NCBI GenBank assembly: GCA_016196755.1 | Contig: JACPXC010000007.1 | Coordinates: 248,001 to 312,000, forward strand | Direction of reading: 5' to 3' | Source: Elusimicrobiota bacterium | Lineage (GTDB): Bacteria; Elusimicrobiota; Elusimicrobia; UBA1565 | DNA: 64,000 nucleotides | In this document: positions 5,293-37,525 of the stretch, one piece after another | How positions within the stretch are numbered: the first letter of the stretch is position 1 | Layout: each line of letters opens with the position of its first letter | Notes under the pieces: model-generated | Databases searched by the model: none | What the model was told of the DNA's origin: nothing | Seen by the model: the letters and a program-made list of their open reading frames with translations, nothing else | Made by a program: the position numbers and the translations under genes

Positions 5293-7035
5293 TCAAGGGG
5301 CATGGCATTCGGAGCACACTTCCCGCTCCACTCCCTTTTTGAGCGGGACCGACTTGTGGCCTCCCAACTCATGGCACTTGCGGCAGGCGCCCGCGGCGGC
5401 CTCCACGTGCATGGCGTGGGGCATCGCCTTGCCTTTGTGCCGGACCGTGTCCGGAGGCACCTTCACGCCGGCTTTCTGATGGCACATGGTGGCGCAGAAG
5501 GACCCCGAGACCAGCGGCAGGTCGGCAAGCTCCGCGCCGTCTCCCCCCGTCGCGGAGTGCGCGGCGCCGAGGCTGGAGTCGACCTGGGCGATGGCCGAGG
5601 CGGCCAGGTAGATGTTGTGCTCGCCCCGGCCTGCGCGCAGGAACTCCAGGTCCCGCCCGGCCTTGGCCAAGGCGGCGCCCCAGCGCTTCCTCTCCTTGTC
5701 CCCCAACGCGGAAGCGGCCAGCGCCTTCTCGGCCGCGCCGCGCTTGGCGTCGAGCTTGTCGAGGGTCTTGGCGAGTTCCCCTCTGGTCTCCTCGAAGAGG
5801 CCTTGGAACGTGGGGCCATGGCATTTGACGCAGGCCTCGTGGGACGCCTTGGTCGTAGAGCCCTTGGGGTCGCCTTTGCGGGCGCTGGCCTCGTAGTGAC
5901 AGGCCGCGCAGTCGACGTCGGCGAGGAACATCGGGCTCGGCATCGGGGCGAGGCCGAAGCGCTCCGCGGCGCGTCCCGAGTAGAAGGCCAGCGGCGCGTC
6001 GTGCTTGCCGGTGTGGCAGATGCCGCAGTCGAACTTCACCGACGGCCCGTGCCAGCCCTCGGGCGGCGCCTCGGGCAGGGGCTTGCCGGGCGGGGGCAGG
6101 ACGTCCTTGGGGACGGTGGACCCGTGGCGGATCTCTTGGTGGCAATGGAAGCAGGCCACGCTCTTGACGGTGACGTGCTGCTCGTGGATGAAGGGGATGT
6201 CGTCAAAGCGCGCCATCTTTTCCTGGTCGTTGTGGCACGTGAAGCAGCGGTCCTTGCTGGCCTCCCCTTTCCCGGCCACGATGTCCATGTGGCAGTTGAG
6301 GCAGGAGACGCCGCGCTTGGTGACGAACTCCCGATGGTCATAGGTCATGTTGCCGATCTTGATCTTCTTGGCGGGGACCTCGTGGCAGCCCACGCAGCCG
6401 GCCAAGGGCTTGAGCTCCCGGCCCTCGCCCATGTCCTTGAAGTGGCAGAGGAAGCAGGTGTCGTAGGTGACCTCCATGTGGTTGCCCATGACCATCTGGG
6501 CGTGGCAGGAGGTGCAGCGCAGCTGCCGGCCGCGGCGCTTGTCGGCCAGGTGCGGCCGGTGATCGAACTTGACGCCGGTCTTGGCCATGATCTTGCCCTC
6601 GAGCAGACGCGTCGAGTGGCAGCCCGAGCGCAGGCAGGAGGCGTCCTCGACGACGGCGAAGGGCTTGGAGTTGTAGGTGCGCGTCACGTACTTGGCCACC
6701 TGGGACAGGTTCTGGTACTTCTTGTAAAGGAGGGAGCGGAACTCCCCGACGTTCGCCGCCGGAGGGTAGTGGCATTCGATGCAGGCCACGCCGGCGTGCT
6801 TGGAGTGCTTCCACGCCTTGTAGTAGGGCTCCATGATGTGGCAGGAATTGCAGAACTGCGGGCTCTCGGAGTACTTGATGAGGCCGACGTTGGCGACGAG
6901 GAAGAACACGAAAGCCCCGGCGGCCAACGCGAAGAAGCGCGGCGTCAGGCGCCAGTTCCAGCGCTCACCCGGAGCCACCTCGACGCCGCCCAGCGCCAAG
7001 AGCCGGCGCAGCCGGTCCTTGAGCCCCTGGTTCAC
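5293..7035 (-). CDS. NapC/NirT-anchored protein with about 15 haems
   Basis: A 580-residue cytochrome with a single transmembrane anchor at about 32-53, followed by a NapC/NrfH-like start (FCNSCHIMEP, then CIECHYPP), the fold that takes electrons from quinol. Thirteen standard CXXCH sites are present, plus a CX4CH site (CLRSGCH) near residue 130 and a CX3CH site (CATMCH) near 524, giving up to 15 haems. A Lys/Glu-rich, probably helical stretch (about 400-470) separates the last haem groups. The GTG at 7035 follows AAGGAGG at a good distance and overlaps the upstream stop (GTGA). It is probably a long periplasmic electron conduit. Confidence 0.88.
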   Translation of the reverse strand: MNQGLKDRLRRLLALGGVEVAPGERWNWRLTPRFFALAAGAFVFFLVANVGLIKYSESPQFCNSCHIMEPYYKAWKHSKHAGVACIECHYPPAANVGEFRSLLYKKYQNLSQVAKYVTRTYNSKPFAVVEDASCLRSGCHSTRLLEGKIMAKTGVKFDHRPHLADKRRGRQLRCTSCHAQMVMGNHMEVTYDTCFLCHFKDMGEGRELKPLAGCVGCHEVPAKKIKIGNMTYDHREFVTKRGVSCLNCHMDIVAGKGEASKDRCFTCHNDQEKMARFDDIPFIHEQHVTVKSVACFHCHQEIRHGSTVPKDVLPPPGKPLPEAPPEGWHGPSVKFDCGICHTGKHDAPLAFYSGRAAERFGLAPMPSPMFLADVDCAACHYEASARKGDPKGSTTKASHEACVKCHGPTFQGLFEETRGELAKTLDKLDAKRGAAEKALAASALGDKERKRWGAALAKAGRDLEFLRAGRGEHNIYLAASAIAQVDSSLGAAHSATGGDGAELADLPLVSGSFCATMCHQKAGVKVPPDTVRHKGKAMPHAMHVEAAAGACRKCHELGGHKSVPLKKGVEREVCSECHAP

Positions 7036-8651
7036 TTCTCCTCCTTATGGATGCGCGGCCGCCCGGTCAGCCACGCCCAGTTCATCGGGTAGATCTCCGG
7101 GTCGAAGGCCACCCAGTAACCGTGCCAGACGAGGATCGCCAGGCAGGCCAGGACGGCCTCCATGAAGTGGACGACGCTGGCGGTCTCCATGACCCAGAGC
7201 GGCAGCAGGCGCAGGGTCAGCGAGTCGAAGGCCAGGACGGCCCCGGTGGCCAGCATGACGCCCGAGCCCCAGACCAGGGCCCAGTACTCGGCCTTCTCGA
7301 TGTACGAGAAGCGCGCCAAGGCCGGGCGCCGGCGCGTGAGCCCGGCGTTGTAGGCGAGCACGCGGAACGGGTCGCGCAGGTCGCGCCGGGAGGGCAGCAG
7401 CGCCGATAGGCGCGCCTTGCCGGCCGCGGAGAGGAGGAGATACGCGGCGTGATAGACGCCGACCAGGCAGAAGGCCCCCGCCGCCGCGCGATGGACGAGC
7501 CGGCGCAGCGCCTCGCCGCCCAGCGACTCGAAAGGCAGCCCCCACCAGTGCCCCGTGTACTTTAATGCAAAGCCGCTGTAGGCCAGGAGCAGGAAGGTGA
7601 CGGCCAGCGCCGCGTGCTGGAGGCGCTCGCCGCCGCTCAGCATCGGATCCTCCTCCGCGCGCATCGGCCGCCGGTCGCCGGTGAGAGCCTTGTGGGCCAG
7701 GTCGAGGAGGTTATGGAAGAGCATCCCGCCGATCGTCAGCGGGATGGCGATGAGATAGAAGATGCGCAGCAGGCCCGCGGCCCGGCTGCCCTCGCCGGAA
7801 CCGGACAGCGACTCGTGGACCTTGCCCGTCCCCAGGCGCAGCGCGGCCCCGGCGTGGCACTGGCCGCAGGCGGTCGCCACGTTGGCGGGATGGATCCGGG
7901 ACGCCGGGTCGCTCGAGGGACGGATGTCGTGGACGCCGTGGCAGGATGCGCAGCTGGCCACCCGAAGTCCGCTGCCGTTCTGCGCCGCCAACCCGTGGTA
8001 CGAGCTCATAAACGACTCCACGCGCCCCGCCGGGACCTTGAAGCTGCCGACCAGGCGCTCCGAGGCGTGGCAAGAGGCGCAGGTGCGCGTGACGCTGCCG
8101 CTCGACACGCTGGATTCGGGGGAGGAGGGGGAGCGGACCGTGTGCTCTCCGTGACAGTCCGTGCAGGCGGGGGCTTCCTTCGTCCCGGCGGCCAGCGCCG
8201 CGCCGTGGACGCTGGCCCGGTACGCGGCCGCCTCCGCGCGGTGGCAGCTCCCGCAGGTGGCGGCGAGGTTGGGCTTGCCGACCCGCGAGCGCGAGTCGAT
8301 CCCGGGCCGCACGTCGTGGGCGCCGTGGCAGTCCACGCAGGAGGCGGCCCGGGTGGAGCCGTGGATAGCGGCTTCGCCATGGACCGTCGTCCGGTAGCTC
8401 TTGGTCGCCTCGGCATGGCAGCGCGTGCAGTCGGGCGCCGGCAGCTTCCCATGCGGGGCCTCGTCCGCGCCGGGGTGGCAGGCCGTGCAGGCCAGCGACC
8501 TGTGGGCCGTGGCGGCGTAGGACTCGAGCCGCGGGGTCGGGGCCCCGCCGTCCGGGTTGTGGCAGCCTAGACAGGTCTCGGCCTCTTCAGGCAAACCGCG
8601 GGCGCCGGCGGGAAGCGCCAGCAGCGTTAGGAAGACGAGGCTCAAAGACAT
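7032..8651 (-). CDS. Nine-haem cytochrome fused to b561-like membrane domain
   Basis: First gene of the operon, 539 residues. The ATG at 8651 is preceded by GGAGGG at 4 nt; an upstream in-frame ATG would add 27 residues before the signal peptide and is less likely. After the signal peptide (ending near ARG) come nine CXXCH sites in about 270 residues, many followed by a His seven or so residues later. The C-terminal 250 residues form a membrane domain with about five helices and several His (for example the VHF and VWH segments), as in di-haem b561 or formate-dehydrogenase-gamma proteins. The fusion should pass electrons between quinone and periplasmic haems. Confidence 0.85.
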   Translation of the reverse strand: MSLSLVFLTLLALPAGARGLPEEAETCLGCHNPDGGAPTPRLESYAATAHRSLACTACHPGADEAPHGKLPAPDCTRCHAEATKSYRTTVHGEAAIHGSTRAASCVDCHGAHDVRPGIDSRSRVGKPNLAATCGSCHRAEAAAYRASVHGAALAAGTKEAPACTDCHGEHTVRSPSSPESSVSSGSVTRTCASCHASERLVGSFKVPAGRVESFMSSYHGLAAQNGSGLRVASCASCHGVHDIRPSSDPASRIHPANVATACGQCHAGAALRLGTGKVHESLSGSGEGSRAAGLLRIFYLIAIPLTIGGMLFHNLLDLAHKALTGDRRPMRAEEDPMLSGGERLQHAALAVTFLLLAYSGFALKYTGHWWGLPFESLGGEALRRLVHRAAAGAFCLVGVYHAAYLLLSAAGKARLSALLPSRRDLRDPFRVLAYNAGLTRRRPALARFSYIEKAEYWALVWGSGVMLATGAVLAFDSLTLRLLPLWVMETASVVHFMEAVLACLAILVWHGYWVAFDPEIYPMNWAWLTGRPRIHKEEK

Positions 8652-36972: not shown

Positions 36973-37000
36973 TTGACAGCCCGAGGTTCCAGTCTATACT
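36973..37000 (+). promoter_or_regulatory. Sigma-70 promoter of structured leader
   Basis: TTGACA (-35), a 16-nt spacer and TATACT (-10), the best consensus promoter in the window. Transcription should begin near 37006-37008, directly at the first hairpin. Confidence 0.75.
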
Positions 37001-37007
37001 TCTGAGA

Positions 37008-37045
37008 GTCACGGCGGCCCCGTTGGGGCCCGGTGGCTTTTTTTT
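37008..37045 (+). terminator. Promoter-proximal terminator/attenuator
   Basis: Stem GTCAC-(GGC)-GGCCCC / GGGGCC-(CG)-GTGGC, followed by eight T. It lies within about 10 nt of the expected transcription start, so it would end very short transcripts unless an alternative pairing forms. Confidence 0.65.
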
Positions 37046-37209
37046 CGACCAAGACCATGACTCCTAGAACCTGCACAGGACAAGGAACGAACGAACGCCT
37101 CAAGCCTGCCTCGGCGCGCATGACGCCCGCCGGCAGGCATAAAGGCCGGCGTGCGATGCGAACGGGCAGAGGGGCGCCGATGTAGCTTCGGCGTCGACCG
37201 CAAGGTCCT

Positions 37210-37239
37210 CCCCCTGCCCAGACCGGGCGGGGGGTTTTT
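37210..37239 (+). terminator. Second terminator, exclusive with aptamer-like stem
   Basis: Stem CCCCCTGCCC / GGGCGGGGGG (10 bp with one U-G pair), loop AGACC, then TTTTT. The 5' arm is the same sequence that closes the upstream three-way junction, so the two folds exclude each other. Confidence 0.75.
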
Positions 37240-37311
37240 ATTGCACCGATCTGGGGGGCGCGACCGTGACCGCGCCCCCCGCAAATCTCGGGGAAGTGAC
37301 CGGAGGGGGTG

Positions 37312-37488
37312 ATGAGGATGAAGAAGCTGACGCAGCCTGCGGTCCGCGCCTACGTCTGGGCGCGGCGCGGCCGGACGGCGTACCTGGTCGAGGCGCGGCT
37401 GGCCGAGCGGGCCGTGGCGGCCCTGCCGGAGCGGGCCGGCCGGCGCCTGCTGGAGCGCCTGCGCGCCAACGCGCGGGCGCGGATGTAA
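37312..37488 (+). CDS. 58-residue very basic protein behind structured leader
   Basis: ATG at 37312 (or 37318) with GGAGGGGG 3 nt upstream; 58 codons, rich in Arg and Ala, beginning MRMKKLTQP and ending RANARARM. It has no TM, Cys or signal peptide and probably forms amphipathic helices that could bind nucleic acid. It is followed at once by a strong terminator, so it is the only ORF of the transcript started at 36973. Unrecognised. Its ribosome-binding site, terminator and codon use support it being real, but the RNA rather than the peptide could be the functional product. Confidence 0.55.
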   Translation: MRMKKLTQPAVRAYVWARRGRTAYLVEARLAERAVAALPERAGRRLLERLRANARARM

Positions 37489-37489
37489 A

Positions 37490-37525
37490 GAGGCGGTCTT
37501 CCGAAAGGAGGACCGCCTCCGTTTT
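37490..37525 (+). terminator. Rho-independent terminator after the 58-codon ORF
   Basis: A 13-bp stem (GAGGCGGTCTTCC with GGAGGACCGCCTC, one G-U), GAAA tetraloop, then CGTTTT. It starts 2 bp after the stop codon. Confidence 0.85.

Follow-up and report, generated by a model that had tools for sequence, protein, structure and literature searches.

Leader-peptide attenuators are established for amino-acid operons such as trp and his. In Sinorhizobium meliloti, translation of an upstream ORF (uORF) keeps the DUF1127 gene, which encodes a small Arg-rich protein, switched off; this attenuation is relieved by tetracycline, the gene is induced by chloramphenicol, no intrinsic terminator was found and Rho was proposed (PMC12218461). 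The trn operon of Anabaena PCC 7120 is a large silent array of 26 tRNAs for translation stress, which is induced by translation inhibitors, lies on a plasmid and is controlled by the DNA-binding repressor TrcR (PMC10272220). The RNA repair operon, with genes for the RtcB RNA ligase and Ro60-family proteins, is regulated by damaged tRNAs via RtcR, a transcription activator with a CARF domain (PMC7790460).

Here we describe the anatomy and the conservation of a switch from an uncultivated Elusimicrobiota bacterium that shares parts with each of these systems. The window (G000:C37:248001-312000, the whole stretch of 64,000 nucleotides that was analysed, from an assembly of 4.6 Mb) carries an element that, judged from its sequence, is very probably a ribosome-mediated transcription attenuator reporting failed translation. 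As in the trp and his attenuators, there is a leader ORF, an antiterminator competes with an intrinsic terminator, the stop codon is placed such that a terminating ribosome would cover one antiterminator strand (strand 2), and tandem control codons occur (here in genome G038). In contrast to these attenuators, the payload is an orphan small protein or else consists of tRNA or RNA-repair genes, tandem control codons are absent from most leaders, and the leader start lacks a Shine-Dalgarno (SD) sequence and lies behind a hairpin with a U-tract. A small-protein gene under the (here predicted) control of an upstream ORF is shared with S. meliloti, whereas the exchange of an intrinsic terminator with an antiterminator is not, and the proteins are not recognised as related. 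Large tRNA arrays are common to Anabaena and the present system, but TrcR there stands against a cis-acting leader here. RtcB and Ro60-family genes, as in the RtcR operon, are also driven in some relatives, but lie behind a putative leader-peptide attenuator and together with tRNA genes. Attenuation by leader peptides and tRNA arrays induced by stress are each known by themselves; a search of the open-access literature gave no paper in which such attenuation is combined with tRNA arrays or with RNA repair.

The leader and its relatives

The element comprises the following features.

36973..37000, + strand: sigma-70-type promoter TTGACA-16-TATACT, 11 of 12 consensus matches, kept in relatives
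37006..37045, + strand: hairpin 1 (GUCACG...GUGGC) with U8 tract, at the 5' end of the transcript
37057..37185, + strand: leader ORF of 42 codons, MTPRTCTGQGTNERLKPASARMTPAGRHKGRRAMRTGRGAPM, stop codon TAG at 37183-37185; frame placed alike in 18 other leaders
37164..37174, + strand: strand 2, GGGCAGAGGGG, last leader codons; antiterminator partner of strand 3
37210..37219, + strand: strand 3, CCCCCTGCCC, common to antiterminator and terminator
37225..37239, + strand: strand 4, GGGCGGGGGG (37225-37234), with U5 tract; forms intrinsic terminator 2 with strand 3
37253..37280, + strand: 10-bp hairpin ahead of the ribosome-binding site
37312..37488, + strand: small basic protein with strong SD sequence, 58 aa from ATG 37312 or 56 aa from ATG 37318; family restricted to the genus
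37490..37525, + strand: terminator behind the small ORF, recognised by its sequence

The near-consensus promoter and the U8 hairpin named in the original prediction are both present. For a promoter with 11 of 12 matches 0.2 were expected in shuffles, and transcription is expected to start near 37007. Hairpin 1 is a stem-loop (37006-37039) followed by U8 (37038-37045), with -24 kcal/mol and a z-score of -4.1. It may act as an early terminator, or its U-rich tract may be where ribosomes land on the SD-less leader; most transcripts may end here, ahead of the leader. The first of two mutually exclusive pairs that had been proposed, 37006-37011 with 37058-37063, was dropped since it is not conserved: the window has the 6-bp match, but 17 other leaders tested have no equivalent, and their longest matches lie at scattered places. 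The TGACTC invoked for this pair (37058) overlaps the start codon of the leader ORF, an ORF that had been missed when the Arg-rich 58-mer was taken for the only one.

The same leader occurs 19 times (in the window and 18 further times), always within one order, UBA1565 of Elusimicrobiota. The order of the parts is constant: the promoter comes first, then hairpin 1, the leader ORF, the antiterminator and lastly the terminator. The leaders were collected by a covariance model of promoter and hairpin 1, by a promoter/GTCACG pattern (zero hits in the reversed control), with a relative's small protein as query and by a terminator pattern; G001, G002 and G003 gave partial matches to the element in a DNA search. 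One leader (G035, L125) follows the same plan with little sequence in common. At three further loci (G015a, G039, G043) the leader ORF is missing and the small ORF directly follows terminators. Model R2 also gave hits outside UBA1565, in other families of the phylum; these, like hits in IMG/VR, were rejected because they show only the promoter or the bare pattern without a leader. G044:C1:1462187 fits the terminator pattern but is not a leader.

Other arrangements were seen behind the same type of promoter. In another family of the class (L061, L063, L066, L067, L069, L070, L072, L074; match at ~1501) a conserved hairpin rich in GC (GGGCCCGCGGCCCC..GCGGGCCC) and a T-run follow it directly, an arrangement that differs from the present leader. 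Promoter hits at L060 (~1365-1560), L075 (~1451-1650), L076 (~1076-1260) and L078 are followed by what, by eye, resembles c-di-GMP (GEMM) riboswitches.

In 19 of 19 leaders the first ATG past the U-tract opens the leader ORF, which has 19-54 codons and ends beside strand 2 of the junction. From this ATG an uninterrupted frame leads to the same stop in each of the 18 leaders tested, and again in G015b. The chance of such an open frame, estimated from shuffles of the segment that separates the U-tract from strand 2, was mostly 0.12-0.33 per leader and once 0.69 (18 leaders). Duplexes with the anti-SD range from +1.0 to -6.6 kcal/mol at the leader starts, none of them good, whereas those of the downstream small ORFs are strong (-10.3 to -16.1 kcal/mol); a U-run lies shortly upstream of most leader starts. 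The leader peptides differ widely between loci. Their ends are similar in many (GMGALM, GRGAPM, GMGPPM, GSEAPV), with AGGAAG and PEDSA also occurring. Leader length differs with the payload: 48-54 codons ahead of large tRNA arrays, against 19-42 codons at small-protein loci (Mann-Whitney p 0.007, one per lineage). Enrichment of rare codons in the leaders was not counted as proof, being expected of any sequence that is not optimised.

Exchange between antiterminator and terminator

The second proposed exchange is present with all its parts and is kept in relatives. Strand 3 has two alternative partners. Pairing with strand 2 closes, in the window, a three-way junction that has a GCAA-loop arm; pairing with strand 4 gives the U5 terminator. 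Terminator 2 has a z-score of -3.8, and the duplex of strands 2 and 3 is better than in all but 0.4% of shuffled leaders. Upon folding up to strand 3, pairing with the last leader codons was obtained in nearly all leaders, and in 11 of 11 lineage representatives the best strand 3 duplex lies within ~20 nt of the leader stop, such that a terminating ribosome would cover the antiterminator strand. With strand 3 held fixed and the leaders shuffled, the duplex had a mean z-score of -2.7 in these 11 representatives (Fisher chi2 93.6 on 22 df). Taken singly, G001, G023 and a few more leaders give a non-significant duplex, and in G025b and G032b the pairing is shifted in the minimum-energy fold. The evidence for the switch is this shuffle test together with the fixed position of the pairing; the switch pairs are not counted as covariation because each was found by folding its own sequence. 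The gene is preceded by mutually exclusive antiterminator and intrinsic terminator, as in ribosome-mediated attenuation. The predicted 10-bp hairpin before the ribosome-binding site is also there, and two congeneric genomes (G001, G002) keep it with changed bases.

RNA polymerase would start near 37007, traverse hairpin 1 and then transcribe the leader ORF, which is presumably translated. A ribosome reaching the leader stop would cover strand 2 and thereby leave strand 3 to pair with strand 4; the resulting U5 terminator would keep the small protein from being made. If the leader is untranslated, or if the ribosome stalls ahead of the last codons, strand 2 would be free to capture the emerging strand 3, and read-through would follow. 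Consequently, the switch would report failing translation; missing or cut tRNAs, starvation, antibiotics and ribosome shortage are possible signals. We infer this direction of the response from the anatomy and from established attenuators, by analogy with which failed leader translation most likely turns the payload on.

The region had originally been ascribed riboswitch or attenuator logic. A metabolite riboswitch or T-box-like leader, in which the three-way junction is an aptamer and a ligand or tRNA chooses between antiterminator and terminator, would agree with a closed junction with two arms and with its exchange with an intrinsic terminator. However, an Rfam search of the leader at gathering and permissive thresholds gave no family, none near gathering scores and no T-box (weak sRNA matches were judged chance). 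Moreover, a conserved aptamer core was not found across the relatives: arms and loops of the junction vary, whereas helix positions, the competing helices and the open leader frame are conserved. We therefore regard a riboswitch or T-box as very unlikely and retain the attenuator for the second pair. Lack of conservation in relatives or an Rfam hit had been named beforehand as evidence that would speak against the proposal, and neither was observed.

Peptide-specific arrest or a drug-specific stall at the leader end (GxGAPM-stop), as in TnaC or erm leaders, would imply that the switch does not respond to general tRNA or ribosome supply. The similar peptide ends would suit such a mechanism, but the same nucleotides build strand 2 and a junction arm, which accounts for the similarity, and deviating ends occur. 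A stall at the leader end would also favour the terminator, that is, the off state. Hence, this mechanism appears improbable. Least probable is that two constitutive terminators merely lower expression and that the leader ORF is fortuitous. The three loci that keep terminators without a leader ORF would fit, but the frame and the placement of strand 2 in 19 leaders and a pairing far beyond shuffles argue against it.

Small-protein and tRNA payloads

A small basic protein is the payload of 11 leaders (window and 10 others). Two families are found, one in the genus of the window (3 of 3 genomes) and another in other genera, with no detectable homology between them (hhalign probability 2%). The small ORF and the terminator closing it had been recognised correctly. 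The 58-aa protein of the window has no match in Pfam or PHROGs and its relative from G002 none in Pfam or NCBIfam; a single weak Pfam match of the G035 relative was judged chance. AlphaFold yields a confident helical hairpin of ~50 residues for the other family (pLDDT 87) and a poor model for the window protein (pLDDT 62). Presumably, the latter helps the cell through translation stress. Arg-specific control was considered for the window leader and dropped, since tandem Arg codons are missing; this leader is without tandem control codons, and its payload has no known codon link.

Behind 8 leaders lie tRNA-type operons, several of them with RtcB, T4-type RNA ligase, Ro60 or slipin.

G003: dense tRNA array, then T4-type RNA ligase, then one more tRNA
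G015b: tRNA array; more tRNAs interspersed with slipin, HNH-protein and Ro60/TROVE-protein genes
G025b: tRNAs, slipin, RtcB
G032b: at least 10 tRNAs, then an apparent RtcB remnant
G024b: tRNAs, then ORFs resembling an IS21-type transposase pair
G030: tRNAs and an RNase P RNA of 177 nt
G038: two tRNAs, Leu(UAA) and Arg(UCU)
G011: slipin, on a short contig

BoxA-like TTCTTTGANAA motifs, seven in total, were found inside 5 of 5 arrays scanned (G003, G024b, G025b, G030, G032b; L009:4047 and 4445, L053:4727 and 4123(-), L088:962, L049:940, L048:4007(-)) and at 0 of 6 control loci. This motif suggests Nus-type antitermination of the tRNA operons.

The arrays have further peculiarities. The transposase-like ORF pair of G024 (L048:1175-3477(-)) follows the first tRNAs, which suggests that the array is interrupted. 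RNase P RNA is usually ~370 nt long; the 177-nt RNA inside the G030 array (L053:3931-4107(-)) is of class A, with 72 bits and E 1e-21. Near array starts lies a tRNA of 97 nt with apparently two anticodon-like arms in tandem (L009:4249-4345(+), L048:4357-4453(-), L049:494-590(+), L088:573-669(+), L053:4770-4866(-), L154 ~7250-7335(-)). Its loops are CTTATAA (UAU; CTTATGA in L088) and CTGATTA or similar (GAU; GGU in L088), and in most copies both anticodons are those of Ile. Bacterial tRNA-Leu normally has a long variable arm; tRNAs with Leu anticodons and class I length (72-77 nt) were seen at L052:5071-5142(+), L009:5848-5924 and 6159-6233(+), and L088:1686-1760(+). Different arrays also share a GC-rich stretch (CGGCTTGCGGG..CTCCCGCCCCCT) that lies between tRNA genes or ahead of them (L053:4540-4600(-), L088:1040-1090(+), L052:5020-5050(+)).

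Leader codons and downstream tRNAs

The 20-codon leader of G038 contains AGA AGA and TTA TTA and lies ahead of tRNA-Arg(UCU) and tRNA-Leu(UAA), so that both tRNAs of the operon are matched by leader tandems. Both tandems together occurred in 1 of 100,000 dinucleotide shuffles, a post hoc figure, since the match was noticed by inspection; among 22,443 codon pairs from sampled genes of the G038 genome each tandem is found once. These codons strongly support self-sensing in this operon. For the large tRNA arrays, some anticodons of which were read by eye, self-sensing is suggested by the codon content. No amino acid is missing from the 54-codon leader of G003, which has all 20 (p ~0.01), and of the 27 anticodons of the array 24 find a codon in it (p ~0.013). 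The leader of G015b, found afterwards, holds 19 amino acids, with p 0.04 when compared with gene windows and 0.10 when compared with shuffles. The codon-tRNA matches in G030, G032b and G025b are non-significant.

As a tentative extension of the attenuator model, the element may belong to a self-sensing tRNA bank, in which the leader ORF probes the tRNAs of its own operon, tRNA loss opens the operon, and the 58-aa protein of the window is a second effector of the same sensor. Loss of any encoded tRNA, by anticodon nucleases or starvation, would stall the leader; the stall would open the operon, and replacement tRNAs and RNA-repair enzymes would be released.

Various bacteria have tRNA arrays in reserve or operons for RNA repair, and those cases found with a known switch use protein regulators. 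With a cis-acting attenuator whose leader codons are comparable to the downstream tRNAs, leader-peptide attenuation would reach beyond amino-acid supply to the supply of tRNAs. The relatives of the switch ahead of spare tRNA genes and RNA-repair enzymes point to a translation-failure alarm, and they provide a function-by-association lead for a small protein without known relatives.
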